Assembly: GCF_000379125.1 (NCBI RefSeq)
Contig: NZ_KB900626.1
Location: 649,433-713,432, forward strand
Length of the DNA stretch: 64,000 nucleotides
Source: Methylosinus sp. LW4
GTDB lineage: Bacteria; Pseudomonadota; Alphaproteobacteria; Rhizobiales; Beijerinckiaceae
Direction: 5' to 3'
Below, one piece after another: positions 12,588 through 46,325 of the stretch (the stretch's first letter is position 1; each line of letters starts with the position of its first letter). Under the pieces are notes generated by a model. It searched no databases, was not told where the DNA came from, and saw nothing but the letters and a program-made list of their open reading frames with translations. The position numbers and the translations under genes are program-made.

Positions 12588-15152
12588 TCAGAATTCCACT
12601 TTCACCGATCCTCTGAAATGACGTGGCGAGCCGGGGATGAAATTGCCGGTCCAGCCGGAGGAGATGTAATAGGTCTGATCCAGGAGATTGCCGACGTTGA
12701 GCTGGAATGTGATCTTTTTCTTGTCGTAGTCGAAGCTGTAGCGCGACATGAGATCGACGACCGTGTACCCCGGCAATGTGAAGCTGTTGGCCTCGTCGAT
12801 CTCCACGGGACCGCGCGTCACGAAGCCCGCGCCGAACGCGAAGCCTCGAACCAGCTCGAATTGCGGTTCATAGACCGCCCAGAGGCTACCGGCGTTGCGC
12901 GGCACGCCCCACCAGCGATTGCCGACCCTTCCGTTCCGCGTGTCGGAGATAATTCGTGAATCGATGTTCGCATAGCTGCCGATGATCTTGAGTTCCGGCA
13001 GCAGTTGACCCTGGACGTCGAACTCGACGCCCGTGTTCTCCACAGCGCCGGTGGTTCGCGCTATTCCGATCGCTCCTCCGACGCCGCCCACTGGCGAGCG
13101 AACATTGGTCTTCACGATGTCGAACCAGGCGGCTGTCGCCGTCAATCGGCCGTCGAGCAGTTCGACCTTGGCGCCGGCCTCCCATTGCCTCGCTTCCTCG
13201 GGCGGCAGCGGACTGCCGTCGACGCTGGCTCCGTTCCCGACTCCAAAGCCCTCCACGTAATTTCCATAGAAGCTGAGTTCGGGGAGCGGGCGCCAGAGCA
13301 GCGCGACGCGCGGCTTCACGGCGTCGGCGGCGAACGTCTTGGAGCTCGCCGATGGATCCGGGAACAAGGTCGTGAAATTTTGATTGTTGCGGGCGGAATC
13401 GTATCGGAAGCCGGCGAGCAGATAGAAGTTGTACGGCAGCTCGATCTGGTCCTGAAGATAGACGCCGTACCAGCTTTCCTTGTAGGTGTCGTGCCCCTTG
13501 GAATCTGGATAAGTGGCGAATTGCATCAGGCTCGAAGGATAGGCGGAACTGAACAGGTCGGTCGCAGGAACGAGCCCCGAGTTGAACGGATAGGCATAGT
13601 CGTCATTGGTTCGATAGCCGTCCACGCCTGTCAGCAGGGTGTGGGCGAGGCCATAAGTATCGAATTGCCCCGTGAGCTCGAGACTGCCGAAATAGCTCTG
13701 CTCTCTCCCGGTCAGCAATCCCGCGTCGCGGAAGACCGGACAGGCTCCCGGTGCGCAACCCGCGGCCGTTGGAGGATAGACGTCGATCCAGGATTCGGGA
13801 ATGTCTCTGAGGCTGATGTCGAGACGCTGCGTGATCTTCCAGTCCTTGTCGAACGCATGCGTGAAATTATATCCGACACGGAAGTCGGATTTGCTTCTCA
13901 TCGCAGAGTCGACCGATCCGTAGTTGCGCGATCTCGGGACCGCGGCGACGACGTTCCAGGACTTGGGAACGCTCGGATCGTAGAGGGCGGGAATGCCGGT
14001 GTCGATCGCATCACGCCCATTGTAGAACTGAAGATAGAAAGTGCCCGAGGTGTCTTCCGTCGGCTGCCAGAAAATCTTCGGCGCGACATAGATATGATAA
14101 TCGTGCAGGCCGTCTCGGAACGAGTTTTCGTTCTGGTAGGCGACATCGAGGCGATAGAGCAGACTTTTGTCCGGTGTCACGGGGCCGGTCGCGCTCAGCA
14201 GCGTGCGATATTGGCCATAGGAGCCGAACAATTGCTGCACCTCGTAATGAGGTTCGGCTTCGGGCCGCTTGGTCGTGACTTCGACGAGGCCGCCCGGCTG
14301 TATGCGCCCGTAGAGGATGGATGCAGGGCCTTTGACGACCTCGACCTGCTGCACGTCGACCGTGTCGCGCGGCGGCAGCGCCATGAAGGGATTGACCCTC
14401 ACGCCGTCCTGATAATAGGCGTAGTCGAGAAACCCTCGAATGTTCCACCCACCTTGAAGCCCAACATAAGGAACCGTGTAGACATTGCTGACGTTTCTGA
14501 CCGCCTCGTCGATCACCACCGCCTGCTGGTCGGAGATGACCTGACGCGGCACCGCCTGGATGCTAACCGGCGTGTTCATGATGGGCGTGTCGGTCTTTGT
14601 CGCGGAGGTCGCGTTCCAGACTTTGTATGCTTCTCTATCCTGCGGCGCGCCGCGCTGCCCGCCGCCGGGCCGGCCCTGAGCATTACGCGCGCCGCTCTCC
14701 GCCCCGATTTCGATTGTCGGGAGCGCCTCCGCCCCGGCGTCGCTGCGCACGCCATTGTCCGCCTGCGCCAGCACAATGGACACGCCGCCGTCCACATCGG
14801 CGAAACGATAGGTGTAGCCCGTGCCGCTGAGCAGGCGGTCGAGCCCTTCGCGCAGGGAATGGCTGCCGACGAGGCCCGGCGACCGCAGATGGCGCGTCGT
14901 GCGGGCGTCATAGAGCAGATGCAGATGATTCTTCTCCGCGAAGGCCGTGAGCGCTCCGGCCATGGAGCCGGCGGGAATCGCATAGGTCGCGATCGTGTCC
15001 GAGACAATGTTCTGCGGCGGGAGCGCCGCCTCGGCCGGAGTGGACGTCGCCCCCGATCCGAGCGCGAAGGCGCTCATCGCCGTCGCCGCCAGAATCGATC
15101 CCATGTTGCCGCCCTCACGATACGCCTTCGACCGCGCCGCGCCTCGTCCCAT
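12588..15152 (-). CDS. TonB-dependent receptor with STN signalling domain (cassette 1)
   Basis: This outer-membrane transducer (854 residues) takes up an unknown ligand using TonB energy and signals to FecR. The order is: signal peptide (1-43, ending AEAALP); STN/secretin-like domain (~52-112, YAIPAGSMAGALTAFAEKNH ... LVGSHSLREGLDRLLSGTGY); TonB box near LPTIEIGAE (~145); plug with PIMNTPVSIQAVPRQVISDQ and VDVQQVEVVKGPASILYGRI; and a 22-strand barrel ending in GSVKVEF with the terminal phenylalanine. The start at 15152 has GGAGGAG upstream. Gene order before it is DUF2946-like, fecI, fecR, all minus strand. A motif shared with the fecR 1 promoter lies at 15204-15234. It is the FecA/FpvA type; the substrate is not decidable. 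Confidence 0.92.
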   Translation of the reverse strand: MGRGAARSKAYREGGNMGSILAATAMSAFALGSGATSTPAEAALPPQNIVSDTIATYAIPAGSMAGALTAFAEKNHLHLLYDARTTRHLRSPGLVGSHSLREGLDRLLSGTGYTYRFADVDGGVSIVLAQADNGVRSDAGAEALPTIEIGAESGARNAQGRPGGGQRGAPQDREAYKVWNATSATKTDTPIMNTPVSIQAVPRQVISDQQAVVIDEAVRNVSNVYTVPYVGLQGGWNIRGFLDYAYYQDGVRVNPFMALPPRDTVDVQQVEVVKGPASILYGRIQPGGLVEVTTKRPEAEPHYEVQQLFGSYGQYRTLLSATGPVTPDKSLLYRLDVAYQNENSFRDGLHDYHIYVAPKIFWQPTEDTSGTFYLQFYNGRDAIDTGIPALYDPSVPKSWNVVAAVPRSRNYGSVDSAMRSKSDFRVGYNFTHAFDKDWKITQRLDISLRDIPESWIDVYPPTAAGCAPGACPVFRDAGLLTGREQSYFGSLELTGQFDTYGLAHTLLTGVDGYRTNDDYAYPFNSGLVPATDLFSSAYPSSLMQFATYPDSKGHDTYKESWYGVYLQDQIELPYNFYLLAGFRYDSARNNQNFTTLFPDPSASSKTFAADAVKPRVALLWRPLPELSFYGNYVEGFGVGNGASVDGSPLPPEEARQWEAGAKVELLDGRLTATAAWFDIVKTNVRSPVGGVGGAIGIARTTGAVENTGVEFDVQGQLLPELKIIGSYANIDSRIISDTRNGRVGNRWWGVPRNAGSLWAVYEPQFELVRGFAFGAGFVTRGPVEIDEANSFTLPGYTVVDLMSRYSFDYDKKKITFQLNVGNLLDQTYYISSGWTGNFIPGSPRHFRGSVKVEF

Positions 15153-15203
15153 CGCCTGCTCCTCCGCCTTTTGTCGTTCGGGAGCGCGAGCGCTCCTAAA
15201 AGA

Positions 15204-15234
15204 CTCCACGGGGAGGTCGGAAATTCGGAACCTC
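15204..15234 (-). promoter_or_regulatory. Candidate FecI-type promoter of receptor gene 1
   Basis: On the minus strand GAGGTTCCG (15226-15234) is followed after exactly 15 nt by CGTGGAG (15204-15210). The same GAGGTTCCG with 15 nt to CGTCGTA occurs in front of fecR 1. FecI/PvdS-type promoters are known to have a CGT core in the -10 region. Identical spacing and -35-like sequence suggest both are read by the FecI of cassette 1. Confidence 0.55.
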
Positions 15235-15281
15235 GATTTGCGAGAAAGTTCTAAAAAAAGGCGAGGCCGCGTCGACCCCGC

Positions 15282-16250
15282 TCATTGGTAGAGGACGATC
15301 AGATAATCGGTGAGGCGAACCGCGCGCAGGTCGAGAAATGTTTCGATCTCGCGCAGCGCCCGCGAAGGGTCGTCGGCGGAGAGGACGGCCGTCACCGGCC
15401 GTGCGCAGACCGCCGCAGACAGGCAATAGACGAATCCGCGGCGATACCGGCCGAGCGCCGCCAGGACCTCGCCGAGGGGCCGGTCCTCGAATATCAGGCT
15501 GCCCCACCGCCATGCCGCGAGGCTATGGGGCGCGACGGATGGAGCCTCGGGCGGCGACTGCGCGTCGAAGATCGTCTGCCGGCCCTCCGGGACCACGACG
15601 CTGCCGCCGGCGCTCGCGACGCGGACCGAATGCTCGCCGACGGCGACGCGAACGCCGCCGCCGACGTCCACCTCGAAGGCCGTGCCGAGCGCGGTGACGG
15701 TCCCACCCCCGGCCTCGACCACGAAAGGCCGCGACGCGTCCTTCGCCACAGCGAACCAGGCTTCCCCGCGCAGCAGCGCCACGCGTCGCCGATCGGCGTC
15801 GAAGCGAACCGCGATCGCCGAGCGCGCGTCGAGCGTGACGTCGGAGCCATCGTCGAGCGTCACGGTCTTGAGCTCGCCTTTTCCTGTCGAAAAATCCGAT
15901 TGCAGCGAGAGCAGCGCGGGATCGACCGCGAGATACAGGGCGAGGCCGGCGGCGGCCGCGAGCGCGGCGATGGCCGCGCGACGTCCGCGATGCGCCGCCG
16001 CCTCGGGACGGACCGACTGGGGACGGTCTGCTCGGCTTCGACCGCCCCGAACGCGTTTCACGCGCGCGTAGGTCCGCTCGATATCGGCGTAGGCCGCCGC
16101 ATTCGCAGGATCGGCGGCGAGCCAAGCGTCGAATTCGGCGCGCTCCTCGCGCGAGAAGCCGGCCCTCGAGCTCACCCACCATTCGATGGCCGCCTCCCGC
16201 GCGGTCGCCGCGGGCGAGGGGGCGCTGTCTTCTGTCATGGAGACGCCCAT
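15282..16250 (-). CDS. fecR: FecR-type anti-sigma regulator (cassette 1)
   Basis: FecR proteins hold the cognate ECF sigma factor at the inner membrane and pass on the signal from the receptor STN domain. This one has 322 residues. The N-terminal DUF4880 anti-sigma domain is seen as REAAIEWWVSSRAGFSREER and AEFDAWLAADPANAAAYADI. A TM helix follows (AAIAALAAAAGLALYLAVD, ~93-111), then the FecR domain (VTLDDGSDVTLDARSAIAVR, LLRGEAWFAVAKDASRPFVV, VTALGTAFEVDVGGGVRVAV) and a C-terminal STN-like segment (ILSADDPSRALREIETFLD region; here AVLSADDPSRALREIETF). It lies between fecI 1 and receptor 1, on the same strand. Confidence 0.92.
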   Translation of the reverse strand: MGVSMTEDSAPSPAATAREAAIEWWVSSRAGFSREERAEFDAWLAADPANAAAYADIERTYARVKRVRGGRSRADRPQSVRPEAAAHRGRRAAIAALAAAAGLALYLAVDPALLSLQSDFSTGKGELKTVTLDDGSDVTLDARSAIAVRFDADRRRVALLRGEAWFAVAKDASRPFVVEAGGGTVTALGTAFEVDVGGGVRVAVGEHSVRVASAGGSVVVPEGRQTIFDAQSPPEAPSVAPHSLAAWRWGSLIFEDRPLGEVLAALGRYRRGFVYCLSAAVCARPVTAVLSADDPSRALREIETFLDLRAVRLTDYLIVLYQ

Positions 16251-16317
16251 TGGACCTGCCCGGTCTCGCGCCAGATTGTTCCGGCGACGGGCCGACGCGT
16301 TCCGGTCCGATATATCC

Positions 16318-16348
16318 TACGACGACGCCGGGCCGAAAACGGAACCTC
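16318..16348 (-). promoter_or_regulatory. Candidate FecI-type promoter of fecR 1
   Basis: On the minus strand GAGGTTCCG (16340-16348), 15 nt spacer, CGTCGTA (16318-16324), then ATAT. It lies in the 130-bp fecI-fecR gap, 68 bp before the fecR start, and shares the first element and spacing with the site before receptor gene 1. The CGTCGTA plus ATAT element also occurs in the fecI-fecR gaps of the other two cassettes. Confidence 0.55.
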
Positions 16349-16380: not shown

Positions 16381-16878
16381 TCAATCGAGCGCCGCGCGGC
16401 AGACGCGCATCGCATGGGCGAGATGTTTTCGCACCATTCGGTCGGAGACGCCCAGCCGTGCAGCGATCTGGCCGACAGTCATATTCTCCATGCTGAGCTC
16501 GAACACCTCCCGGCACCGTGGCGGAAGCAAGTCGACGGCAGAGTCGAGCAGACGGGATTGTCGCTCATATTCCAGGCGGTCCTCGGGCGCCGTCTCCTCC
16601 GATGGGGCGTCGTCCAGAAGCTCCCTCGGGCGAAGATGGACGATTTCCGTCCTGCGCTTGCGCATGAAGTCGCGGACGAGGTTGAGCGCGATCTTCTGCA
16701 AAAGCGCGGGCGGATCGGCGATGGCTTCGATCTGGTCGCGCCGCAGGACGCGAATGAAGGCGTCATGCAGCAGGTCGGGAGCGGCCTCGCGTCCGACCTT
16801 GCGCGTGAAGTAGCGTAGCATTGCGCGATGATTGCGCTCGAAAAGATCGCGAATGAGCGACTTCTTGTCGTCGAACAT
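16381..16878 (-). CDS. fecI: ECF sigma factor, FecI type (cassette 1)
   Basis: A 165-residue extracytoplasmic-function sigma factor that should direct RNA polymerase to the receptor operon when released by FecR. Region 2 covers ~8-75 (LFERNHRAMLRYFTRKVGRE, DLLHDAFIRVLRR, LLQKIALNLVRDFMRKRRTE) and region 4 covers ~105-160 (LLDSAVDLLPPRCREVFELS, MTVGQIAARLGVSDRMVRKH, an HTH). There is no region 3, as expected. It follows the DUF2946-like gene by 96 bp and precedes fecR. The ATG at 16878 matches the starts of the two paralogues (MFDDKKSL against MFETKRRL). Confidence 0.93.
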   Translation of the reverse strand: MFDDKKSLIRDLFERNHRAMLRYFTRKVGREAAPDLLHDAFIRVLRRDQIEAIADPPALLQKIALNLVRDFMRKRRTEIVHLRPRELLDDAPSEETAPEDRLEYERQSRLLDSAVDLLPPRCREVFELSMENMTVGQIAARLGVSDRMVRKHLAHAMRVCRAALD

Positions 16879-16974: not shown

Positions 16975-17364
16975 TTATGAAAGGCCCGGAGGCGCGCGCT
17001 GCGACCACGAGCTGATCCAGCCGAGCGGCGGCGTCGTGTCCGCGCCTGGGAACATGTCGACGCGTTTGATGTCGCGGCGAGGCGAGAACTCGAAGTGCTC
17101 GTGCAGAAGCGTTAAATGCCCTACCGAGCCGTCGATTTGAAAGCCCCGACAGGGAATGCAACATGAGCAAGTAGGGTGTGGTCCGTGCGAATGCCGGTGG
17201 TCGTCGGCTTCGCCCGCACAATGCTCGAGACCTCCAGCGGAGACGGCGACGGCGCGGGATGATGCGGCGGCCGTCGCCATTCCTTGGAGGACTAAGGCGC
17301 ACGCCAAGAGGCCCGCGATCAATAGGCGGGCGATCCCCTTCGGCCAGAGCGCGAACGTGTCCAT
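16975..17364 (-). CDS. Small Cys/His-rich exported protein, DUF2946-like (cassette 1)
   Basis: A 129-residue protein with an N-terminal hydrophobic segment (IARLLIAGLLACALVLQGMA, signal peptide or anchor), a His-rich stretch (DDHRHSHGPH) running into TCSCCIPCR, a ~50-residue linker and the tail GWISSWSQRAPP. The layout (signal, CxxC-type motif, terminal W...RAPP) fits DUF2946, a family often found beside TonB receptors. Cysteines plus histidines suggest metal binding, which is inference. Two paralogues (30445-30846, 45835-46233) hold the same position ahead of fecI, with near-identical first 20 and last 12 residues. The start ATG 17364 is fixed by this alignment. The function is unknown. Confidence 0.85.
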   Translation of the reverse strand: MDTFALWPKGIARLLIAGLLACALVLQGMATAAASSRAVAVSAGGLEHCAGEADDHRHSHGPHPTCSCCIPCRGFQIDGSVGHLTLLHEHFEFSPRRDIKRVDMFPGADTTPPLGWISSWSQRAPPGLS

Positions 17365-17460
17365 TTCTCACACCGAACGCCCGGATGCGATGCGGAGTCA
17401 AGATTGAGAAATCGTCGGCTCGGCGAAAGCCCTTTCTCTGTGGCGGAATTACAACATGGC
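17365..17460 (-). promoter_or_regulatory. Conserved promoter/operator block upstream of cassette 1
   Basis: Read toward the gene on the minus strand: an imperfect palindrome TGTTGT-N6-GCCACA (17439-17456), then GAGAAAGGGCTTTCG, then CTTGACTCC, then GTTCGG close to the start. The same elements in the same order and spacing lie before the other two DUF2946-like genes (30847-30940, 46234-46325). The palindrome ends 75 nt before the ATG. TTGACT is a plausible housekeeping -35. Confidence 0.65.
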
Positions 17461-17763: not shown

Positions 17764-18195
17764 ATGTTGCGCGAGCGTGGCCATATCCGCATGCGGCGGC
17801 GGTGGACGCGACGTGGGGGCCTCGGCGTGCTTGTTGGTCTGACCAGATTCTTGGTCGGCTTCGTCCTGCTGGTGCAGGCGATCACGCTCGTTCCCGCCGA
17901 ACGCGCTTTCGTGGAAATGGTCGGCTCGCTTTCCTGCTCGCGCGCGGAAGCGATCGATCCCGCTGTCGACGCGAGCGGACGAACCGATACGGACCGCTCG
18001 CAGAGCCACGCGCACGAGCGTTGCCTCCAGTGCGATGGCGTCGCCTTCGGGCCGCCGCCCTTCGCCCTCTCGCGGGTCGCCCCTGCGCGTCACGCTTCGC
18101 CAGCGAAGAATTTGGTGCGCGCGCGCGCTGCGCCACCCGGTCGGCCGCTCGCTGATCCCAATGTTTTCGCCCGCGCCGGGCCCAGCTTTTCCTGA
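17764..18195 (+). CDS. Small exported Cys/His protein preceding a TonB receptor
   Basis: A 143-residue protein with arginine-rich N-terminus, one hydrophobic segment (LGVLVGLTRFLVGFVLLVQA, ~20-40), and the motif SHAHERCLQCDG (~101-112) with two cysteines in CxxC spacing and nearby histidines. The C-terminal part is proline/alanine-rich (RAAPPGRPL). The plan matches the DUF2946-like proteins of the cassettes, though sequence similarity is weak. It lies 116 bp upstream of the receptor gene at 18312 on the same strand, so the link between a Cys-rich exported protein and a receptor repeats here without FecIR. An internal ATG at 17791 is an alternative start. Confidence 0.7.
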   Translation: MLRERGHIRMRRRWTRRGGLGVLVGLTRFLVGFVLLVQAITLVPAERAFVEMVGSLSCSRAEAIDPAVDASGRTDTDRSQSHAHERCLQCDGVAFGPPPFALSRVAPARHASPAKNLVRARAAPPGRPLADPNVFARAGPSFS

Positions 18196-18311: not shown

Positions 18312-20630
18312 ATGAACCGCAACGATCTGCTGCGCGGCGCGGGAGCGCTCGCGCTGCTTCTGGCCGCATCGCCGATGCGAGCGCAGGAAGAACTGCCCGA
18401 CATCGATATCTCCAGCGCCACTCGTACTTCCGTGAAGCTCCAGGAGGCGCCCGCCGCCGTCGATGTCGCCGTCTCCGACGACGATAAGGAAAAAGGCAAA
18501 GGCACTCTGCTTACCATCGAGCAGCATAATTCGCGGCGCCTCGCGGATGCGCTCACCGAGTCGCCGAGCCTCTTCTTCCGCGGCAGCGCCTTCGGCAATA
18601 CGACTCCGGGCAGCGGCCAGGGCGGCTTCTCCATGCGCGGCATCGCCGGCAATCGCTCGCGCATCATGATCGACGGCCAGACTCTGAACTCCGGCTATTC
18701 GAACGGCGTCAACTGGTCATCGGTCATGATGAGCGACGTCGAGCGCATCGAGGTCGTTCCGGGCGCCTTTTCGGCGCTTTGGGGCGGCGACGCCATGGGC
18801 GGGGTCGTCAATGTCATTTCCAAGCGGCCGACCAAGCGCGAGCTCACCGGCGAGGCCGGCGTGACGGCGGGATCGCCCGTCGCCTATTTCGCCAATGTCG
18901 GCTATCGTGATCGCTTCGACAATGGGCTCGGGATCGCGGTTGCGCTGGGCCATATCGGCAATCACAGCTTCATCGGCGACTTTGTGACGAAGACCGCAGC
19001 GGCCGGCGCCGCGGGGACGCCCGTCGTCGGCGCGATTCCGACGACGGACCAGAATGGCAATCCCTCGATCATCATCGGCGACAAGGGCCGCCGTCCCTGG
19101 GATCAGCAGAACGGCAATCTGCGTCTCTATTACGATTATTCCGCCGACACCAAGCTCTCGGCCGGCGTGAGCTACGACCGCTATCACACCTATTACACGC
19201 ACAATAACGACTATATCGCGGGCCGTGGCGGCTCCTTCCTGAGCGGAGCGGCGAATAATACGGGCGTGCAATTCTCCGTCGCGCCGACCGACTTCGTGAC
19301 CTTGCAGCCGTCCGAGGAAACGAGCCTGCGCGGCTTTGGACGTTTCGAGACGAAGATCGCCGATGGGCTCACGCTCGAAGGAGATGTGGGCTATGCGACG
19401 CTGACGAATTGGTATGTGAATTTCATCAGCGGCAAGTCCTATTACGACGGCGGCGTCGGTCAGATATCGACCTCGCCCAATACGCGCTTCAACTCGAGCA
19501 TGCAGCTCCACGCGCAGCTTCTCGAATACAACGACATCATATTGGGCGGCTCCTTCGAGGAGAGCACGCTCGCCCGGCACAATGACGACACATGGTTCTG
19601 GCGCAATCCCGATTCGCGCGTCGCCACCAGCTATTCCGCCAATGGCGATTCGACGATGACCTCTGTCTATTTCCAGGACAAGGTCTCGCCGCTGAAGGAC
19701 TTCCAGCTCCCTTATGTGCGGGCCTTCGATCTTTATTTCGGCGGGCGCTATGACATGTGGGAGGCGCATGGCGCCAATTTCCAGTCGCCCACGCCCTACC
19801 AGCCGACGCTGCTCGGCTTCTATCGCAGCAATTCGTTGCGTCAGGAGAATAGCTTCAGCCCGAAGTTTTCGGCCGTCTATGAGCCGTTCGAATGGGTGAC
19901 ATTGCACGGCTCGGTCGGCACGGCCTTTCATCCGCCGACGCTCAGCCAGCTCTATTCGACCGCCTTCACGACCAAGACCGGTCCTGTCGGCGTGCGCACC
20001 ACGGAGGCGGATCCCAATCTGAAGTCCGAAAAATTGTTCGGCTGGGAGATCGGCGCCAATTTCCGTCTGCCGACGCGCACGAAGATTCAGGCGACCTATT
20101 TCGAGAATGATCTGCGCGATCTCATCTACCAGCAGGTCATCATTCAAGGAACGGCGAACGACCTCAATCGCAACGTCAATGTCGGCCGCGCCTATGTGCA
20201 TGGCATAGAGGCGACGGTGCGTCAGGAGGTCACCGAAGAGCTCGCGCTGTTCGGCGTGGTGACGCGGCAGGATCCGCGCGTGACCAAGAACGACTCCCAG
20301 ATCGCCATGGTCGGCAAGGTGCTGGGCGACGTGCCCAGCACCAGCTTCGTGTTCGGCGGCGAATGGAAATGGCGCGAATGGGCCGCGTCGGCGGAGGTCA
20401 AATACACGGGCAAGATTTTCGGCAATAGCGACACGCTGAACCAAGGCGTGGCCAATGGGGTATTCGGAACCTACGACCCCTATACGTTGGTGAATGCGAA
20501 GATCAGCTACAAATTCGACGAGAACGTCACTTTCTCCGTCGCAGGAAACAATCTGCTGAATCAGCGCTACTTTCAATATTATCTGCAACCGGGCCTGACG
20601 ATCACATCGTCGCTTTCGGTCCGATATTGA
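18312..20630 (+). CDS. TonB-dependent receptor without STN domain
   Basis: A 772-residue outer-membrane receptor. The signal peptide is MNRNDLLRGAGALALLLAAS (cleavage at MRAQEE), with a TonB-box-like ELPDIDIS right after it (~29-36). The plug is LADALTESPSLFFRGSAFGN, GGFSMRGIAGNRSRIMIDGQ and MSDVERIEVVPGAFSALWGG. The barrel carries typical strands (LHGSVGTAFHPPTLSQLYS, LKSEKLFGWEIGANFRLPT) and ends SSLSVRY rather than in phenylalanine or tryptophan. With no STN domain it should transport only and not signal. It forms a pair with the Cys protein upstream. The barrel resembles the BtuB/CirA/OprC group, which covers cobalamin, catechol and copper receptors; I cannot choose among them. Confidence 0.9.
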   Translation: MNRNDLLRGAGALALLLAASPMRAQEELPDIDISSATRTSVKLQEAPAAVDVAVSDDDKEKGKGTLLTIEQHNSRRLADALTESPSLFFRGSAFGNTTPGSGQGGFSMRGIAGNRSRIMIDGQTLNSGYSNGVNWSSVMMSDVERIEVVPGAFSALWGGDAMGGVVNVISKRPTKRELTGEAGVTAGSPVAYFANVGYRDRFDNGLGIAVALGHIGNHSFIGDFVTKTAAAGAAGTPVVGAIPTTDQNGNPSIIIGDKGRRPWDQQNGNLRLYYDYSADTKLSAGVSYDRYHTYYTHNNDYIAGRGGSFLSGAANNTGVQFSVAPTDFVTLQPSEETSLRGFGRFETKIADGLTLEGDVGYATLTNWYVNFISGKSYYDGGVGQISTSPNTRFNSSMQLHAQLLEYNDIILGGSFEESTLARHNDDTWFWRNPDSRVATSYSANGDSTMTSVYFQDKVSPLKDFQLPYVRAFDLYFGGRYDMWEAHGANFQSPTPYQPTLLGFYRSNSLRQENSFSPKFSAVYEPFEWVTLHGSVGTAFHPPTLSQLYSTAFTTKTGPVGVRTTEADPNLKSEKLFGWEIGANFRLPTRTKIQATYFENDLRDLIYQQVIIQGTANDLNRNVNVGRAYVHGIEATVRQEVTEELALFGVVTRQDPRVTKNDSQIAMVGKVLGDVPSTSFVFGGEWKWREWAASAEVKYTGKIFGNSDTLNQGVANGVFGTYDPYTLVNAKISYKFDENVTFSVAGNNLLNQRYFQYYLQPGLTITSSLSVRY

Positions 20631-28653: not shown

Positions 28654-28711
28654 TTGCCCGCCCCTCGATCTCATTGCGGGGCCGCGGCTCGAGAGCGGCC
28701 CCTGAATCGAT

Positions 28712-29737: not shown

Positions 29738-29786
29738 CACTCGAACCGGGCCCCAGATTCCCGAGCGCGCTCGGGCTGTCGATATG

Positions 29787-29833: not shown

Positions 29834-30337
29834 TTATTCCGGGAGCGAATTGCGGCACCGGAGGATGGCGAGATTCAAGTGTCGGCGGACCATGGTGTCG
29901 GTGATGCCGAGCCGTCTGGCGGCCTCTTTCGCGGGCACGCCCTCTTGCATGACCATCTCGAAAACTCGCCGGCATTGCGGCGGCAAGGCCTCGATGGCCG
30001 CCGAAACGAGGAGCCGCTTGCGTTCCTGGTCGATGCGCTCGTCGACCGGGATTTCGTCCGCCGGGACCCCCGTCGGCGGTTCGCCGAATTCCAGACGCTT
30101 CCCCTCGGACTTCGCGCGGCGTTTGAAATCTCGTGTGAGATTGATCGCGATCCGCTGGAGAAACGCCGGAGGATCGACGATCTCCTCCAGATGGTCGTGA
30201 CCGAGCGCGCGAATGAATGTCTCGTTCAGCAGGTCCGGCGCGTTGTCGCGACCGGCTCGGCGCGTCAGATATCTCAACAAAGCATGGCTGTTACGCTCGA
30301 AGAGCGCGCCGACGAGACGGCGTTTTGTCTCGAACAT
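29834..30337 (-). CDS. fecI: ECF sigma factor, FecI type (cassette 2)
   Basis: 167 residues with sigma region 2 (LFERNSHALLRYLTRRAGRD, DLLNETFIRALGHDHLEE, FLQRIAINLTRDFKRRAKSE) and region 4 (LLVSAAIEALPPQCRRVFEM, VPAKEAARRLGITDTMVRRH as HTH). The linker between them (~90-110) is longer and more acidic than in FecI 1. It is encoded between the DUF2946-like gene (108 bp upstream) and fecR. Its region 4 recognition helix (GITDTMVRRHLNL) differs from that of FecI 1 (GVSDRMVRKHLAH), consistent with different promoter preference. Confidence 0.93.
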   Translation of the reverse strand: MFETKRRLVGALFERNSHALLRYLTRRAGRDNAPDLLNETFIRALGHDHLEEIVDPPAFLQRIAINLTRDFKRRAKSEGKRLEFGEPPTGVPADEIPVDERIDQERKRLLVSAAIEALPPQCRRVFEMVMQEGVPAKEAARRLGITDTMVRRHLNLAILRCRNSLPE

Positions 30338-30444: not shown

Positions 30445-30846
30445 TCATGTTGAAAAAGGCGGCGCGCGTTGCGACCACGAGCTGATCCAGCCCTCTGGGG
30501 ACGATGTCCCCACGATCGAAAAACTGCCGACCGGAACATCCGCGGCGGCCCAAATCGAGAGATCGTCGTCCTTAGGTAGGACTGAGAGAAATCCGGTCGG
30601 GCCGTCGATTTGGCCGAAGCGGCAGAGGATGCAACAAGAACAAGAGAGATGCGTCCCCGGCTCACGGCGTTGGTCATCGGCGCCGCTTGGTTCGGCGCAG
30701 TGACCGAAATTCGCGGAGATGACCCCGTCGCCGAGGGCTTGCGCCAATACGCTGGCGGCCAGCCCCGGCAAGACGAGAGCCCAAGCCAAGAGGCCCACGA
30801 TCAACAAGCGGGCGACACCCTTCGGCCAAAACGCGAACTTGTCCAT
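30445..30846 (-). CDS. Small Cys-rich exported protein, DUF2946-like (cassette 2)
   Basis: 133 residues. N-terminus MDKFAFWPKGVARLLIVGLL is the hydrophobic export/anchor segment. The Cys motif is SCSCCILCR (~73-81), preceded by fewer histidines than in the paralogues (one, in PGTHLS). The tail is GWISSWSQRAPP, identical to cassette 1. The middle (~82-118) varies freely. Start ATG 30846 aligns with MDTFALWPKG and MDKLAPWSKG of the other two. A conserved promoter block lies just upstream. A role in periplasmic handling of a metal, or as a partner in sensing, is inference only. Confidence 0.85.
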   Translation of the reverse strand: MDKFAFWPKGVARLLIVGLLAWALVLPGLAASVLAQALGDGVISANFGHCAEPSGADDQRREPGTHLSCSCCILCRFGQIDGPTGFLSVLPKDDDLSIWAAADVPVGSFSIVGTSSPEGWISSWSQRAPPFST

Positions 30847-30940
30847 ATCCCCTACGGAACCCCTGGAACCCACGAGGAGTCAAGGGCGGGGAACGGCGAA
30901 GCAGCGAAAGCCCTCTCTCTGTTGCAGAAGCGCCACATGG
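30847..30940 (-). promoter_or_regulatory. Conserved promoter/operator block upstream of cassette 2
   Basis: Toward the gene: palindrome TGTGGC-N6-GCAACA (30920-30937), GAGAGAGGGCTTTCG, CCTTGACTCC, and GGTTCCG near the start. The palindrome ends 74 nt before the ATG. Elements and spacing match the blocks of cassettes 1 and 3. Confidence 0.65.
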
Positions 30941-33474: not shown

Positions 33475-33505
33475 TTGAGGATCGACCTTTCTGGTCCTGT
33501 GCGTC

Positions 33506-40282: not shown

Positions 40283-40628
40283 AAATCCCCCGTATCGAAG
40301 CAAGCCGAGGCAACCTCGAGCAGTCTCTGAGTGTCGACTCGGACGCGTCGCAGGCGCTTTTCGAGGCTTTCAACCAACGTAGCCTTTGCTATGTGCTAAG
40401 GTTACATTACGAATGCAAATTCACGCAATGCTGAAACGGCAGGCTTTCGGCCCGTTTTTACGCCAGGATCGGCGCCCAATGGCGCTAAAATAGTAAGCAT
40501 CCCTGCATGTGACAGAGTCCTTGTTTGAAATTTGCAAAACTTCTTATTGAACGAGTCGGCGATGAGAGAATGCGCGTGCCCTACGACGCACAGGGGAGTG
40601 CTATCTTCTTATATAAACCAGATAAATA
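40283..40628. other. Upstream region of tpsA, with a hairpin
   Basis: About 345 bp of relatively AT-rich DNA expected to hold the tpsA promoter. A hairpin AAACG (40434-40438) / CGTTT (40453-40457) followed by two more T residues looks like a small intrinsic terminator on the plus strand, but no plus-strand gene precedes it. No gene is seen. Confidence 0.45.
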
Positions 40629-41439: not shown

Positions 41440-43980
41440 TCAGAATTCTACGCGTAACGAGCCGAGGAAAGTGCGGGGCGTTCCGGTCTGTATCGTGTAG
41501 CGATCGGTCGAGGAAGGATAATAGACCACATCAGTTATGTTCCTGACATTGAGCTGAGCGGTGACGTTGTAGCCCTCGATCTTTGTCGTATACGCGATCA
41601 TGCCGTTGAGCAGTGCATAGCCCGGCAAGACGAAAGAATTGGCGTTGTCACCGAACGAGCTTTCCGAGACGAACACTCCCGCTCCGAGGCTCAAACCGCG
41701 AAACGCTCCGTCCGCATCATATTTGATCCAGAGATTGCCGTAGTTTCGTGGACTTCCCGCGAGTTTGAAGCCGGCGACCGGACGTTGCGTCGTTATTTCC
41801 GTCAGGGGATTCAGTGGCGATCCGATGACCGTGCGCACATCGTCATGCGTGTAGTTCGCGATGATGCTCCAATTGTCGTCGACGCGGCCCGTGAGATCGA
41901 ATTCGAAGCCCTGGCTGCGCGCTTTGCCGATCAGCAGCGTATTGCCGGCGATGGTCGGGTCCGGCGTCGGAATATTGGTTTTCGTCAGGTCGAAATAGGA
42001 CATCGTCAACGAAAGGCGCTTGTCGAAGAATTCGGCCTTGAGGCCGCCTTCATATTGCTCGCCCTTTTGTGGATCGAGAGCCGTGACGCCCTGGTTGAAG
42101 CCGTTGTTCGTGCCGAAGGACTGGCTGAAATTGCCGTAGAGCGTCAACCATGGTGTCGGCTGATAGGCAATGCCGACGCGCGGACTGAACGCCTTGGCGT
42201 ATTGGAGCGCATAGGTCGCCTGCGCCATATACGGCGAGGTGGCGTTGGAGTTGATTCCGTATTCTGCCCAGTCGTATCGCCCTCCGAGCAGAACATGCAC
42301 GGAATCGTCGAGGAAGGATATCATGTCCTGACCATATATCCCCTTCCAACTCTGACCGAGCACTCGAAATGTCTGCCCCCGGAAAGGATTCTCTATATTC
42401 CAATAGCTTGGTGAGTAGATGTTTATCGGACTGATGCCATAGGAGTACACGTTGTAGAGAGGCGTGGACGTGTTGAAATAGTCGAGACCTACCAATATCG
42501 AATGGCTGAGGGGACCGGTTTCGAATTTGCCTTTGAGGTCGAGGCTCGTCACAAAGTTCTTGGTGGTGTTTCCGGTGAAGTAATTCATCGTGCGCGTCAG
42601 CACGCCGGTGGCCGGATTGAAGCTCGAGCCGAAACTATCGGTGAGACGATAACCGAAATTCGAATAGGCGAGCTTGCTCGTCAGACTCCAATCCTCGTCG
42701 AATCGGTAGGTCCAGTCGTAAGCGATGCGTCTGCGCTCCACATTGTCGTGCAGCCATGTCGTGAGCGAAGGCTCCTGGAGATAGCGGTCGAGCGGGAGAT
42801 AGGCAGGCCCTCCACCCACGGCCGGCAGCAAGGCGTAGTCGTCGACATTGTCTCGCCGCTGATATTCGAAATCGATATTCATCCGAAATTGTTCGATCGG
42901 ATGGAGCGTGATGGTGGGAGCGATGAAGAAGTTCTTGTCAGTGACGAAATTTCGATAGGAATCGATGCTGTAATATTCGGCATTGAGGCGATAGAGCACA
43001 CTCTTGTCGGCGATTACTGGGCCGGTTGCGTCGATCGTCGTCCGCGTGCCGCTGAAAGACGCCACTTGCTGCTGGACGGAATAATAGGGCGTTTCGAGCG
43101 GCCGTTTCACGACGAGATCGATGATTCCGCCGGGCTCCACGCGCCCATAGAGCATAGCCGCCGGGCCCTTCAGCACATCGATCGACTGGAGATTGGTCGT
43201 GTCGAGGTTTCGCATGCCGTATTCGAGCAATCCATTCTTGTAGGAATTCGCCGCGTTGGCGAAACCGCGCACCTTGTACTGTTCGAGGAAATTCGGCAGC
43301 AGCGTTACGCCGCTGACGTTGCCGACGATCGCATCCTTCACGCTGATCACCTGCTGATCGTCCATCGTCTGACGCGTCACGACCTGGACAGATATTGGTG
43401 TCTGGAGGAGCGGCGTGTCTGTCTTCAACGTCTGCGACGCGCTCTGAGAATTATACCCAGTGTAGCGGTCGCCCGGCCCCTGCGGCGCGCCGCCCGTCCC
43501 ACTCATGGGCCGCTCTTTCTCCGCCGCGCCCACATCAATTGTCGGCAGCGGCGTCGCGCCAGAGGCGTCGCTGCGCACGCCATTGTCCGCCTGCGCCAAT
43601 ACAATCGTCACGGTGCGGCTAGTGGCCGCCATGCGATAGGAGAGACCGGAGCCCGCGAGCAGACGCTCCAACCCGTCCTTCACGGAATAGGCGCCGGAGA
43701 GCCCCTCCGTCTTCAGCCCCAGCGTGGCCGAGGAGTCATAGAGCACATGGAGGCCGTTCGCGTCGGCGAAGCTGTTCAGCGCCGCGGCCAAGGGCCCGGG
43801 CGCAATCCGATAGCTCTGCACCCAGCCGGCCCGTTCCTGCGGCGAAACGGAAGCCTGCGCCGGCGAATCCGACGCTCCCGCCCCGAAGGCAACGACCCCC
43901 ATGGCTGTGATCGCCAGAGTTGATCCCATCGCTCCTTTGCCCGCGCCCTGGATCTCGTTCCGCAGTCCCGGTTTCGACAT
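41440..43980 (-). CDS. TonB-dependent receptor with STN signalling domain (cassette 3)
   Basis: An 846-residue transducer. Signal region 1-42 (GSTLAITAMGVVAFGAGASD, cleavage near PAQASV), STN domain ~53-113 (YRIAPGPLAAALNSFADANG, LSGAYSVKDGLERLLAGSGL), VLAQADNGVRSDA linker, TonB box LPTIDVGAAE (~148), plug (LLQTPISVQVVTRQTMDDQQ, LQSIDVLKGPAAMLYGRVEP, GGIIDLVVKRP) and barrel ending RTFLGSLRVEF. Start ATG 43980 is preferred over an in-frame ATG at 44103 because only from here does the leader-like sequence begin. Unlike cassettes 1 and 2, I find no FecI-type motif upstream that it shares with its fecR, and its fecI is frameshifted. Confidence 0.92.
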   Translation of the reverse strand: MSKPGLRNEIQGAGKGAMGSTLAITAMGVVAFGAGASDSPAQASVSPQERAGWVQSYRIAPGPLAAALNSFADANGLHVLYDSSATLGLKTEGLSGAYSVKDGLERLLAGSGLSYRMAATSRTVTIVLAQADNGVRSDASGATPLPTIDVGAAEKERPMSGTGGAPQGPGDRYTGYNSQSASQTLKTDTPLLQTPISVQVVTRQTMDDQQVISVKDAIVGNVSGVTLLPNFLEQYKVRGFANAANSYKNGLLEYGMRNLDTTNLQSIDVLKGPAAMLYGRVEPGGIIDLVVKRPLETPYYSVQQQVASFSGTRTTIDATGPVIADKSVLYRLNAEYYSIDSYRNFVTDKNFFIAPTITLHPIEQFRMNIDFEYQRRDNVDDYALLPAVGGGPAYLPLDRYLQEPSLTTWLHDNVERRRIAYDWTYRFDEDWSLTSKLAYSNFGYRLTDSFGSSFNPATGVLTRTMNYFTGNTTKNFVTSLDLKGKFETGPLSHSILVGLDYFNTSTPLYNVYSYGISPINIYSPSYWNIENPFRGQTFRVLGQSWKGIYGQDMISFLDDSVHVLLGGRYDWAEYGINSNATSPYMAQATYALQYAKAFSPRVGIAYQPTPWLTLYGNFSQSFGTNNGFNQGVTALDPQKGEQYEGGLKAEFFDKRLSLTMSYFDLTKTNIPTPDPTIAGNTLLIGKARSQGFEFDLTGRVDDNWSIIANYTHDDVRTVIGSPLNPLTEITTQRPVAGFKLAGSPRNYGNLWIKYDADGAFRGLSLGAGVFVSESSFGDNANSFVLPGYALLNGMIAYTTKIEGYNVTAQLNVRNITDVVYYPSSTDRYTIQTGTPRTFLGSLRVEF

Positions 43981-44126
43981 TGCCGCATCCCCGCATTTCG
44001 CTTGGGGCGAAACGCCCCTCACTGGGATTGACGCAGCAATCGGGAATCGGGGCAGTCGATCGTCGAAAAAGGAGAAAAAATTTTCGCGGGCGTGGCGAAG
44101 CAAACGGCGTCAGCGCTCAGCGAAAG

Positions 44127-45071
44127 TCACTCATATATAAGTATCAGGTAGTTGGTGAGATTCACCGCATGTAGTCCGAGCGAGGCTTCGACTTCCTCCA
44201 GCGCCGAGAGTGGATCGTCCGCGCCGAAAATGCCGGTGACGCGGCGCGCCCGCAGCGCTGGATTGGCGAAATAGACGAAGCCGCGATGGTAGCGTCCGAG
44301 CGCCTCGATCACCTCGCCGAGCGGCCTGTCCTCGAACATCAGCCGGCCGCGCCGCCAGGCGGTGACGCGCTCGACATTGGCGGGCTCCGCCGGCTGCACC
44401 GCGCCGTTTGTCGCATAGGCGCTCTGCTGACCCTCATCGACGATCACCTTCCGCCCCCCGCTCGCGACCGACACGCGATGCTGGGTGACTGTCACGCGCG
44501 CCTGCGCGTCCACGACCGCGACGTCGAAAGCCGTGCCCTGCGCCGTCGTCGAGCCGCCGGCCGCTTCGACGACGAAGGGGCGGGAGCGATCGGGCGCGAC
44601 CTCGAACCACGCTTCCCCCGCGAGAAGGGCGAGGCGCCGCTCGCCGGCGCTATAACGAACCGCGATCGCCGATCGGGAGTCGAGCTCGACGCGCGAGCCA
44701 TCCTCGAGCGTGATGCGCTTGGTCTCTCCCGTTCCGGCGCGATAATCGGAGCGCAGGAATAAGGACAAGTCGTCGAAGAAGACCGCGAAGGCGACCGACG
44801 CCGCGACGAGCGCCGCCGCCGGGAGACGCCGACTCCGCCCCGTTCGGACGCCTACGAGTCCTTTGGACTGAGCGGGATCCATGTCGATCAAATGCCCGCA
44901 CATGTCCGAGATATCATCGAAAGCTGCCCGGTTCGCCGTATCCGCTGCGAGCCAAGCCTCGAATTCCGTCTGCTCGCAGCTCGTCGGCGCACGGTTCTTT
45001 CTCCGCAGCCACCACTCGATGGCCGCGTCGCGCGGGTCTTCACCGCGTGAATTGCCGTTGCTTTCGTTCAT
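44127..45071 (-). CDS. fecR: FecR-type anti-sigma regulator (cassette 3)
   Basis: 314 residues. Anti-sigma domain PRDAAIEWWLRRKNRAPTSC and TEFEAWLAADTANRAAFDDI; TM helix LPAAALVAASVAFAVFFDDL (~85-104); FecR domain RITLEDGSRVELDSRSAIAV, LLAGEAWFEVAPDRSRPFVV and AQGTAFDVAVVDAQARVTVT; C-terminal signalling part FGADDPLSALEEVEASLGLH. ATG 45071 (MNESNGNS) aligns with the other FecR starts; an upstream in-frame ATG (45125) is less likely. The paired FecI gene just upstream carries a frameshift, so this FecR may have no working partner. Confidence 0.91.
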   Translation of the reverse strand: MNESNGNSRGEDPRDAAIEWWLRRKNRAPTSCEQTEFEAWLAADTANRAAFDDISDMCGHLIDMDPAQSKGLVGVRTGRSRRLPAAALVAASVAFAVFFDDLSLFLRSDYRAGTGETKRITLEDGSRVELDSRSAIAVRYSAGERRLALLAGEAWFEVAPDRSRPFVVEAAGGSTTAQGTAFDVAVVDAQARVTVTQHRVSVASGGRKVIVDEGQQSAYATNGAVQPAEPANVERVTAWRRGRLMFEDRPLGEVIEALGRYHRGFVYFANPALRARRVTGIFGADDPLSALEEVEASLGLHAVNLTNYLILIYE

Positions 45072-45135
45072 CTCGACGACCGCCCGATCGGCTGCGCTTC
45101 GCCACGCGCTCCGCGCGTGGGGCAAGCAGACGCTC

Positions 45136-45179
45136 GCATATAGTACGACGCGCCGGCGGGGAAAAAGGGCGGTCTCATG
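45136..45179 (-). promoter_or_regulatory. Candidate FecI-type promoter of fecR 3
   Basis: On the minus strand the fecI-fecR gap contains GAGACCGCCC, TTTTTC, then CGTCGTA followed by CTATAT, matching the CGTCGTA plus ATAT element of the other two gaps. The upstream element differs from both other cassettes. No second copy is visible before receptor gene 3. Confidence 0.4.
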
Positions 45180-45186
45180 GAAAAAA

Positions 45187-45691
45187 TCAATCCAAGGCCG
45201 CGCGGCAGCGCTGAAGGGCGAGGCGCATGTGCTTATGCGCCGTATTTCGGGCGATCCCCAGTCTCGACGCGATCGATCTCCTCCACGGGCAAGCCTTCAT
45301 ACATGAACAGCACGAACACTTCCCGGCATCGTGGCGGCAGCGTTTCCACGGTGGCGCGCAATCTGCGCTTCTTTTCTTCCAGCGCCAGTCGTTCGTCGGC
45401 CGGGACGGCGCCGGACGGCGCCTCCACCGGGGCATCGCCGAATTCGAGGCATGCGGCCTCGGTCGAGCGGCGCCGCGCAAAATCACGGGTGAGATTGACC
45501 GCGACCTGTCGCAGGAACGCCGGCGGATCGGCGATGGCGTCGAATTCGCCGCGTCGGAGCGCGCGAACGAATGTCTCCTGCAACAGATCGGACGCGTCCT
45601 CGCGGCCCACCCGGCGCGTCAGATATCGGAGCAATCCATGCCTGTTGCGCAGGAACAGCTCGTGGAACCAAGCTGATTTCTTATCCGGCAT
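45187..45691 (-). pseudogene. fecI: ECF sigma factor, FecI type (cassette 3), frameshifted in region 4
   Basis: From ATG 45691 the frame gives a normal FecI: MPDKKSAWFHELFLRNRHGL, DLLQETFVRALRRGEFDAIA, FLRQVAVNLTRDFARRRSTE and LPPRCREVFVLFMYEGLPVE. At 45271-45278 the bases GATCGATC are a 4-bp tandem duplication; reading continues out of frame (EEIDRVETGDRPKYGA, stop at 45233). Removing four bases restores EEIASRLGIARNTAHKHMRL and the family end ALQRCRAALD at 45187. The region 4 helix-turn-helix is therefore lost in the encoded protein. It is either a true recent mutation, a slippage switch or a sequencing error; the remaining sequence is otherwise well conserved. Confidence 0.85.
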
Positions 45692-45834
45692 ATGCGGTTT
45701 CCGGCGACATATCGAATCGCTAGCCGAGGTCGGGCGTGCGACCGTCGATTCAGCGCTCCGAGGGGCGGGCGGATATTCAAAATGAGAAGCGGCCGTTTGC
45801 TGAGGCCAGGAGGCGTTGTGATTGCCTCGCGCAG

Positions 45835-46233
45835 TCAAACCATCGGCGGAGCGCGCGACGACCAGGAGCTGATCCAGCCGGCGGGCGGCGCTGCTTCGAC
45901 GATCGGGAGCGCGCCGGCGAGAAAGGCTTCAGAGGCCGGAAATGAAAGGCCGACGTTCTTCGGCAAGTCCGAGAGAAAGCCGGTGAGCTCGTCGAGATCG
46001 CCAGAGCGGCAAGGAATGCAGCAGGAGCAAGAGGCGTGCGGCCCTCGAGAATGCCTGTGCTCGTCGGCATGATCGGCGGCGACGCAACGATCGAGGTCTC
46101 CAGAGGAGACGCCCACCACGGCGGCTCGGGACAAAACGGCTCCCGCCGCGCCTTGCATGACGAGGGCCCACGCCAGGAGCCCCGCGAGCAACGCGCGGGC
46201 TATCCCCTTCGACCAGGGCGCGAGCTTGTCCAT
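45835..46233 (-). CDS. Small Cys/His-rich exported protein, DUF2946-like (cassette 3)
   Basis: 132 residues. N-terminus MDKLAPWSKGIARALLAGLL with hydrophobic segment to ~32; a His/Asp-rich stretch DHADEHRHSRGPH precedes SCSCCIPCR (~72-80); the tail is GWISSWSSRAPP. The region after the Cys motif (DLDELTGFLSDLPKNVGLSF) is also related to cassette 2 (QIDGPTGFLSVLPKDDDLSI), so copies 2 and 3 are closest there, while copies 1 and 3 share the His-rich stretch. ATG 46233 was set by paralogue alignment; the open frame extends upstream without similarity. First gene of the cassette, followed by the damaged fecI. Confidence 0.85.
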   Translation of the reverse strand: MDKLAPWSKGIARALLAGLLAWALVMQGAAGAVLSRAAVVGVSSGDLDRCVAADHADEHRHSRGPHASCSCCIPCRSGDLDELTGFLSDLPKNVGLSFPASEAFLAGALPIVEAAPPAGWISSWSSRAPPMV

Positions 46234-46325
46234 GCGCCCACGGAACCGCTGAAGCCCATCGGTAGTCAAGGCAGACAACAGGAAGCGAGACGAAAATCCA
46301 TTCACTGTGGCAGAGCCGCAACAGC
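46234..46325 (-). promoter_or_regulatory. Conserved promoter/operator block upstream of cassette 3
   Basis: Toward the gene: palindrome TGTTGC-N6-GCCACA (46306-46323), GTGAATGGATTTTCG, CCTTGACTAC, and GGTTCCG near the start. The palindrome ends 73 nt before the ATG. Same order and spacing as the blocks of cassettes 1 and 2. Confidence 0.65.

Follow-up and report, generated by a model that had tools for sequence, protein, structure and literature searches.

The small Cys-rich gene that opens three FecI-FecR-receptor cassettes of Methylosinus sp. LW4 is, judging by its motifs and relatives, quite likely a CruR-like regulatory upstream ORF whose nascent peptide would sense a metal, most likely copper, and not a working chaperone. 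Its conserved GWISSWSxRAPP, earlier read as a binding surface, is probably a stalling sequence. Among the roles offered by the original prediction, the metal sensor is the best reading. In the window, by which we mean the whole stretch of 64,000 nucleotides analysed, and in related genomes we have observed the gene order, the motifs, the homology, the linkage to FecIR and methanobactin genes, and, at the end of the ORF or close to it, a stretch rich in C. The wider proposal, to which we would give an even chance, is that CruR-like arrest peptides supply the missing copper input both to the methanobactin system and to every FecIR system in this genome, wired in two ways, through Rho ahead of fecI and through unmasking of the Shine-Dalgarno sequence (SD) by the last codons of the ORF ahead of receptors.

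Three cassettes and their leading ORF

The order Cys protein-FecI-FecR-STN receptor occurs in three copies, all on the minus strand, just as predicted. In all three sets Pfam identifies sigma-70 regions 2 and 4, FecR with DUF4880, and STN with Plug and barrel, that is, an ECF sigma factor, a FecR protein and a receptor with STN; by its domains the FecI-FecR-receptor trio is present in every copy, with fecI 3 frame-broken. In the first cassette the CruR-like ORF (16975..17364; 129 aa, CSCCIPC, tail GWISSWSQRAPPGLS) is followed by a FecI-type ECF sigma factor (16381..16878), FecR (15282..16250, also an own-genome DUF4880 match), an STN-type TonB receptor (12588..15209, from the GTG start of the longest ORF, the real start being perhaps further in) and, behind it, a PepSY_TM protein (11273..12553), also minus-strand and assigned by Pfam. 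The second comprises the ORF (30445..30846; 133 aa, CSCCILC, tail GWISSWSQRAPPFST), FecI-type ECF sigma factor (29834..30337), FecR (28802..29740) and STN-type TonB receptor (26032..28674), and the third the ORF (45835..46233; 132 aa, CSCCIPC, tail GWISSWSSRAPPMV), the broken fecI (45187..45691), FecR (44127..45125) and an STN-type TonB receptor (41440..44103) that is MbnT-like by its identity to receptors of methanobactin loci. The N-terminal frame of fecI 3 runs 45691-45233 and its C-terminal segment continues in another frame to 45187, so the final ~30 codons lie in a different frame (45486-45187), and the Pfam match to sigma region 4 stops at profile position 32 of 54. Gaps of 96, 107 and 143 nt separate ORF and fecI in cassettes 1, 2 and 3, respectively. 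A fourth, divergent CruR-like ORF was found by the window scan on the plus strand (17764..18195, E 9.1e-9), with the tail NVFARAGPSFS, in which RAGP replaces RAPP; the TonB receptor behind it (18312..20630, plus strand) has Pfam Plug and barrel without an STN match.

As foreseen, the first gene encodes a small protein of exported type, judged by hydropathy only, each copy having a hydrophobic segment at its N-terminus (18-residue hydropathy means 2.1, 2.4 and 1.7). The ORFs are rich in Cys and His, and each contains a CXXC as CSCCI(P/L)C, in agreement with the CSCC(I)xC motif first described, and RAPP 2–3 residues ahead of the C-terminus. GWISSWS(Q/S)RAPP, predicted to form the last 12 residues, is indeed conserved, but 2–3 variable residues come after it, while the alignment bears out a variable middle. 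Across 23 paralogue rows from the own genome (mean identity 31%) the (near-)invariant columns are M1, C49, C69, C72, R123, A124, P125 and P126, and CSCCxxC is kept in all six members of the close group. The label "DUF2946-like" survives only indirectly: against the DUF2946 profile (cut-off 23.7) the three ORFs gave 15.1 bits, 17.3 bits and no match, but a profile of the three matches another ORF (G000:C1:469838, E 1.5e-6) that exceeds the cut-off at 24.6 bits, so they are linked to DUF2946 only via intermediates. The spacing from CXXC to RAPP is 50–51 counted from CI(P/L)C, or 53–54 from CSCC, and misses that of CruR (45, within 1–2). We therefore file the window ORFs as a CruR variant and not as CruR itself; the longer spacing also counts against the copper-sensing reading.

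Relatives, neighbours and methanobactin loci

The own genome has six close paralogues and, with E values of 1e-4 or lower, 33 matches, so the similarity of the cassettes is not due to chance; nine other Methylosinus genomes have 0–24 matches. This expansion provides natural variants for arrest studies, RAGP and spacing changes included. An exact RAPP lies within 8 residues of the C-terminus in 118 of 152 distinct relatives and a variant in a further 14, the 20 without a proper ending being 8 fragments, 5 with RAPP/RGPP plus 11–14 residues and 7 in which the motif is lost. A plasmid collection gave no matches for two of the ORFs, and in a wider scan of genome contigs, from which records very close to the genome of the window may be excluded, a single relative turned up, in Methylosinus sporium DSM 17706.

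All 14 FecR loci found in the own genome carry a CruR-like ORF ahead of fecI, 13 of them with RAPP and the remaining one with an SGPP ending and an in-frame TGA. Across the genus such an ORF is present at 59 or more of the 89 FecR loci, the other 30 being without one among the matches listed. The 18 relatives that belong to other genera within the order are never followed by fecI; six precede receptors, and some stand, by eye, before CopC-, Sco- or PCuAC-like genes, which are copper contexts. Moreover, 64 of 143 relatives directly precede a TonB receptor with no FecI or FecR between. The idea of an obligate leading member is thus true of the own genome and not of the genus or of the other genera, and homologues scattered without fecIR linkage, named beforehand as a result that would speak against the idea, were in part found.

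These neighbourhoods bear on another reading, in which the exported protein, once mature, would serve in the periplasm as a chaperone for metal, or would bind FecR or the STN domain via its C-terminal surface and so act as a modulator. The N-terminal hydrophobic export-type stretch, the Cys/His-rich composition and the FecIR linkage would suit it, and we nevertheless consider it very improbable: what is conserved at the C-terminus is RAPP, the motif at which CruR arrests (described in passages of PMC12992588 and PMC9426467); the tail recurs ahead of receptors where FecR is absent; the receptor class has RNA-level signals in its last codons (see below), unexpected for a binding surface; and CruR is reported to be inactive in trans (passages of PMC9426467). 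A chaperone or FecR partner was accordingly dropped as the leading idea.

All six methanobactin loci with upstream DNA included start with a CruR-like ORF, one of these ORFs being a weak case, and the locus of the known M. trichosporium OB3b peptide is among them. In the OB3b-type ORF the spacing to RAPP is 45 from CGGC and 48 from CALC. By its place at the head of that locus, this ORF is a candidate for the negative regulator, binding copper, whose existence was postulated in 2013. Receptor 3 has 60, 59, 63 and 53% identity to the receptors of four fecIR-headed methanobactin loci (own genome, G102, G099 and OB3b type, respectively). Receptor 1 has 36–39% identity to the methanobactin-locus receptors of the own genome and OB3b type, and receptor 2 about 34% to the same two and 72–73% to paralogue L187. 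There is no mbnA or mbnB beside the window cassettes, and an MbnA-like pattern had no credible match in the window; the single above-cut-off MbnB of the genome is on contig C2, the window on C1.

An arrest peptide that senses another metal (iron, zinc, nickel, cobalt or a lanthanide), the redox state, or several metals by paralogue seems unlikely to us. FecIR systems serve iron for the most part, and with the ORF on all of the own-genome FecIR units none would be left for iron. The Cys motifs also vary among paralogues, three of which (L006, L014 and L022) are without CXXC, and His-only CutF-like proteins adjoin HupE/UreJ nickel/cobalt genes, according to passages of PMC9973294. Copper is favoured over these by the CSCCxxC kept throughout the close group, by the response of CruR to Cu in metal tests (passages of PMC9426467), by the linkage to methanobactin genes and by the MbnT-like receptor 3.

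Signals around the ORF end and the proposed control

In the copper-sensing reading that we prefer, a ribosome translating the ORF when metal is scarce would stall at the C-terminal RAPP and keep Rho away from the C-rich region in which the ORF ends, and fecI-fecR would be transcribed. Copper on the CSCCxxC of the nascent chain would release the arrest, the ribosome would depart and transcription would end before fecI. FecI made under scarcity would be kept by FecR until the STN receptor takes a metal-loaded ligand (methanobactin or another chalkophore), and once freed it would drive its target genes, so that each cassette would work as an AND gate for low copper and a ligand outside. Stalling, copper as ligand, Rho, the direction of control and the AND gate we infer from papers on CruR and on FecIR/MbnIRT. 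Since MbnT1 of OB3b is reported to be constitutive as far as its own methanobactin is concerned (passages of PMC9601215), a simple AND gate would be ill-suited to OB3b.

As raw values, the C>G bubble reaches maxima of 18, 19 and 21% in the window cassettes and a mean of 12%, centred 20 nt past the stop, in 55 fecI-type loci. A second, lesser rise (7%) lies within fecI in these loci. In cassette 2 the maximum, at 30612, still lies within the ORF, and C and G are nearly even in number in the gap, at 41 and 37.

A different pattern was found for the sister ORFs that precede receptors, which mostly end in TCCTGA, able to mask the receptor's ribosome-binding site, and whose tail-SD pairing in ensemble folds has a mean of 0.44 (47 loci). 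This pairing, the precedent of CutF (passages of PMC9973294) and C68-C72, which has the CxxxC spacing named for CutF, would be in line with a control of the opposite sign, in which a stall that lasts longer in the presence of metal would let the ribosome open a hairpin that masks the fecI start region, turning the operon on. We hold this to be very unlikely, as tail-SD pairing was not found ahead of fecI (mean 0.04, 25 loci, ensemble fold), synonymous recoding there had no effect (11 of 25 loci below control), a strong SD precedes fecI in none of 20 clusters, and genes for uptake and methanobactin would hardly be expected to be induced by copper. When partners were permuted at the fecI loci, the test of tail against start region was significant (6 of 5000) and leaves some weak complementarity; masking of the SD by the ORF tail was nonetheless rejected as the fecI mechanism.

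Directly behind fecR 1 and before the receptor lies a terminator-like hairpin with a T run (15261..15281, minus strand), of which only the position is suggestive; between 12000 and 31500 intrinsic terminators show no excess, with 12 terminator-like sites versus 14.6 in shuffles. Upstream of the ORFs, pattern matching located the inverted repeat TGTKGC-N6-GCMACA at ORF 2 (30920..30937) and ORF 3 (46306..46323) and a degenerate copy with at most 2 substitutions at ORF 1 (17439..17456); the repeat is counted by the exact pattern only, 3-substitution matches being uninformative (104 on the two strands of the window). A conserved TTGACT-N18-TTCCGTA-like element on the minus strand ends 6 nt before the start codon of ORF 1 (17371..17401), with like elements at ORFs 2 (30883-30853) and 3 (46269-46239).

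What is new here is the position of CruR-like ORFs ahead of fecI and ahead of methanobactin loci, together with the TCCTGA endings before receptors. The open-access papers searched do not describe any DUF2946-type ORF that precedes fecI or mbnI, although Fig. 7 or Table S1 of the CruR paper may list fecI; the main text of that paper (PMC9426467), in the parts available, has no mention of FecI or FecR. Copper control of methanobactin and the methane-oxidase copper switch are treated as open in the passages available from the methanobactin literature. If the wider proposal is true, one sensor family would head mbnIRT-mbnABC and every fecIR operon of this Methylosinus genome, copper would shut the sigma factors off and a chalkophore at the STN receptor would activate them, and copper-sensing arrest peptides would govern not only single transporters but also a cascade of sigma factors. 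Two mutable leader-ORF motifs at the native locus make copper control of methanobactin directly testable.

Comparison with known arrest peptides

CruR (bp2923) of Bordetella pertussis is a DUF2946 copper-responsive uORF which, in the passages of PMC9426467, is predicted to be poorly structured, stalls at RAPP under low copper, keeping the operon on, and exerts its control in a Rho-dependent way. The same passages state that RAPP and CXXC are both required for function, RAPP for downstream expression and CXXC sensing Cu, that the spacing of 45 is conserved within 1–2 residues, a change of +5 strongly cutting the copper response, and that MbnPH-like genes are among those named; arrest on RAPP was demonstrated in vitro (passages of PMC12992588). 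CruR and the window ORFs share an exported-type small protein with a CXXC and a RAPP near the C-terminus, a long gap and uptake genes downstream; the first place in an operon and a C>G bubble close to where the ORF ends may also be common to both. They differ in the next gene, a receptor for CruR and fecI for the window ORFs, in the CSCCxxC with its longer spacing, in the DUF2946 score under the cut-off and in the extra conserved GWISSW preceding RAPP.

MbnI-MbnR-MbnT of Methylosinus (passages of PMC3621798 and PMC9601215) resembles the cassettes in having FecI, FecR and an STN-type receptor in identical order, and differs in adjoining mbnA/mbnB. A leader ORF goes unmentioned in those passages of PMC3621798 and in the available text of PMC9601215 (no uORF, DUF2946, leader peptide or attenuat-).

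CutF of Rhodobacter capsulatus, with which the DUF2946 passages of PMC10502375 deal, is an exported sensor of DUF2946-like type whose C-terminus carries a Pro-rich motif for stalling, features which the window ORFs probably share, and through it copper switches cutO on (passages of PMC9973294). It opens a stem-loop that masks the SD; the receptor-type ORFs of Methylosinus may act likewise, and no such masking by the ORF tail was found ahead of fecI. Arrest peptides with a C-terminal RAPP/RAGP stalling motif, the motif of the window ORFs, are also known (abstract of PMC10951233). ApdA, ApdP and SecM are of this kind and sense protein export, not metals. SecM also carries WI...RAGP. In Streptomyces lividans, arrest peptides with four predicted TM segments precede ECF sigma factors (passages of PMC12992588).

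Cassettes in the window and their leading protein

The set of four genes expected three times on the minus strand (a small Cys-rich exported protein, FecI, FecR and an STN-type TonB receptor; cassettes 1, 2, and 3) was confirmed by ORF reading and Pfam domains, with sigma-70 regions 2 and 4, FecR with DUF4880, and receptors with STN, Plug and barrel. The genome around the window is 4.8 Mb, and Methylosinus sporium was the sole named relative found in a scan of named genomes. The leading proteins of cassettes 2 and 3 are 50 and 51% identical to that of cassette 1, and all three carry a hydrophobic stretch near the N-terminus and the motif CSCCI(P/L)C, and close with GWISSWS(Q/S)RAPP plus 2–3 residues. 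As judged by sequence, this motif set is the signature of CruR, the copper-responsive DUF2946 upstream ORF of Bordetella. By analogy, we consider it rather probable that these are CruR-like nascent-chain sensors, probably of copper, heading FecIR cascades. Of the function originally predicted, the sensor is retained, while the proposed C-terminal binding surface is not, the end being the RAPP arrest motif.

A profile built from the three leading proteins gave 20 genome matches (E up to 1), and a 23-row profile of their relatives gave 33 (E up to 1e-4). The invariant or nearly invariant columns of the 23-row alignment (mean identity 31%) are the start Met, Cys49, Cys69, Cys72, and R-A-P-P. Among 152 distinct ORFs, exact RAPP was found within 8 residues of the C-terminus in 118 and a variant in 14; the 20 with neither comprise eight fragments, five with RAPP or RGPP followed by 11–14 residues, and seven in which the motif is lost. 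Of 99 genomes sampled from the family, 3 contained the closest subfamily (E below 1e-50), all three being members of the window's own genus.

The third fecI (45691-45187, minus strand) is frame-broken near its end, within sigma region 4; a fecI in two frames was also seen at the methanobactin locus of a relative (G102, L199). Divergent from cassette 1, the window scan revealed a fourth CruR-like ORF (17764-18195, plus strand), ending in RAGP (SecM-like) instead of RAPP, with a TonB receptor identified by Pfam behind it (18312-20630, plus strand). Between cassettes 2 and 3 lies a minus-strand two-partner secretion pair, an ShlB-type transporter (31747-33810) and a 2265 aa protein (33506-40303) with TPS, YDG, and GLUG matches. 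There are also two more TonB receptors (49988-52300 and 54619-56946, minus strand) and a PepSY_TM protein (57386-59029, plus strand), near which the window scan found no CruR-like ORF.

Linkage to fecI, FecR, and TonB receptors

The conserved leading position of the ORF was upheld for all 14 FecR loci found in its own genome, although not as a general rule. This genome has at least 14 FecR genes by DUF4880 (with 150 of the 190 first-look candidates scored), 13 of them within 1.6 kb behind a listed CruR-like ORF and matching its 13 fecI-class loci. The fourteenth also has an ORF (L228, tail SSSRAPPSIG, E 8.7e-10), followed in the stretch read by fecI, fecR, and receptor. One of the 14 ORFs (G000:C2:167169) has an SGPP end and an in-frame TGA. 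Across the genus, at least 59 of 89 FecR genes lie behind a CruR-like ORF (58 among the matches listed, one of these from a second list, plus L228), and the other 30 had none among the matches listed.

Downstream genes were counted wherever more than 400 nt followed the ORF, which held for 143 relatives (the other 9 of the 152 being dropped): fecI in 55, a TonB receptor directly behind in 64, and neither or unclassified in 24. The first automatic sorting had given 55, 56, and 32; eight were then reassigned by a start-motif pass. The ORF–fecI pattern fades beyond the genus, with fecI behind 1 of 6 loci in another genus of the family and 0 of 18 across further genera of the order (one of these likewise from the family). 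A receptor stood behind 6 of these 18, and some others had genes resembling, by eye, CopC, Sco, PCuAC, and PepSY proteins.

Methanobactin loci

The genome encodes a true MbnB (428 bits), immediately preceded by an MbnA-like peptide, and MbnM (467 bits). Some 8.5 kb before them, in the same orientation, the locus starts with a CruR-like ORF, fecI, fecR, and an STN receptor. Eight MbnB genes occur in 7 of 10 genomes of the genus, and a CruR-like ORF heads all six methanobactin loci with enough upstream DNA (those of G100 and G104, too near a contig end, are outside this count). Five continue with fecI–fecR and one has the ORF directly ahead of the receptor, a weak case (G078:C4; E 7.8e-11, RGPP then 13 residues). 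One of the six encodes MTVKIAQKKVLPVIGRAAALCGSCYPCSCM, the precursor of M. trichosporium OB3b (PMC3621798), and its leader ORF ends in SSWSRAPPAALC, at a spacing of 45 from CGGC and 48 from CALC. A negative regulator that binds copper was postulated in 2013, and this leader ORF is a candidate for that role. For OB3b, a foreign methanobactin is reported to induce mbnT2 in a way that requires MbnI2R2 and the receptor signalling domain, and MbnT1 is termed constitutive (PMC9601215). If the CruR-like reading holds, an unusual consequence is that methanobactin control gains a candidate copper input.

The cassette 3 receptor is 53–63% identical to the receptors of four methanobactin loci, those of cassettes 1 and 2 being more distant (29–39% over the five such receptors compared). 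Cassette 3 therefore looks, from its sequence, like a methanobactin uptake system without synthesis genes and with a broken sigma gene. Separately, an ORF–fecI–fecR–receptor unit on contig C2 of G105 is followed by a short ORF whose leader resembles that of MbnA (MAIKISKK...; L202:2837-2703, minus strand); no MbnB-like ORF was found in this 9.5 kb stretch, and the short ORF is either a remnant or chance.

Regulatory signals and comparison with CruR

The inverted repeat TGTKGC-N6-GCMACA has 14 genome sites (30920-30937 and 46306-46323 in the window, plus 12 further) versus 2 for the reversed pattern. Nine of the 14 are directly upstream of CruR-like ORFs and three of the other five are beside receptor genes, so a common transcription factor on top of the arrest peptide is likely. 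One of these three (G000:C2:185189, L184) lies 99 nt from a divergent gene for an OmpR-type response regulator, which may be the protein binding the repeat. Another conserved element, TTGACT-N18-TTCCGTA (17401-17371, 30883-30853, and 46269-46239, minus strand), ends 6 nt before the start codon in the close group; as a promoter, it would give an mRNA with almost no leader.

The ORFs directly ahead of receptors mostly end in TCCTGA (51 of 64; 27 of the 31 clusters whose start was defined), even though TCC ranks just third among the serine codons of the sampled window genes. Such an end is able to pair with the receptor SD (mean pairing 0.44, 47 loci). In 37 of the 47, with related loci counted separately, synonymous recoding gave a more accessible SD than the native sequence has. 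A ribosome arrested on RAPP should sit over the TCCTGA end. This is not a feature of the ORFs ahead of fecI, where TCCTGA ends 10 of 55 (0 of 20 clusters) and tail–SD pairing is 0.04 over 25 loci, the 30 of 55 without a motif-defined start being left out. Some complementarity may exist at the fecI start, a possibility kept because permuting the partners gave a significant result for the receptor class (14 of 5000) and the fecI class (6 of 5000) alike.

In CruR, downstream expression is reported to need RAPP, the copper response CXXC, and shut-off Rho (PMC9426467), and arrest was seen in vitro with the two prolines in the P and A sites (a 2025 paper, PMC12992588). The three cassettes resemble it in their ORF–fecI gaps (96, 107, and 143 nt) and C over G maxima (18, 19, and 21%), a likeness limited in cassette 2, where the maximum falls within the ORF and the gap contains almost as many G (37) as C (41). 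For the 55 fecI-type loci, the raw excess of C over G is on average 12% in windows with their centre 20 nt past the stop, ~zero at +220, 7% at +300, and near zero from +380; receptor-type loci have 13% at +20. Unlike CruR, with its Cys–RAPP spacing of 45, the cassettes have 50–51, and a spacing change of +5 is reported to have strongly impaired CruR's response (PMC9426467). Given this mismatch and a DUF2946 score under the cut-off, we therefore label the leading protein a CruR-like variant.
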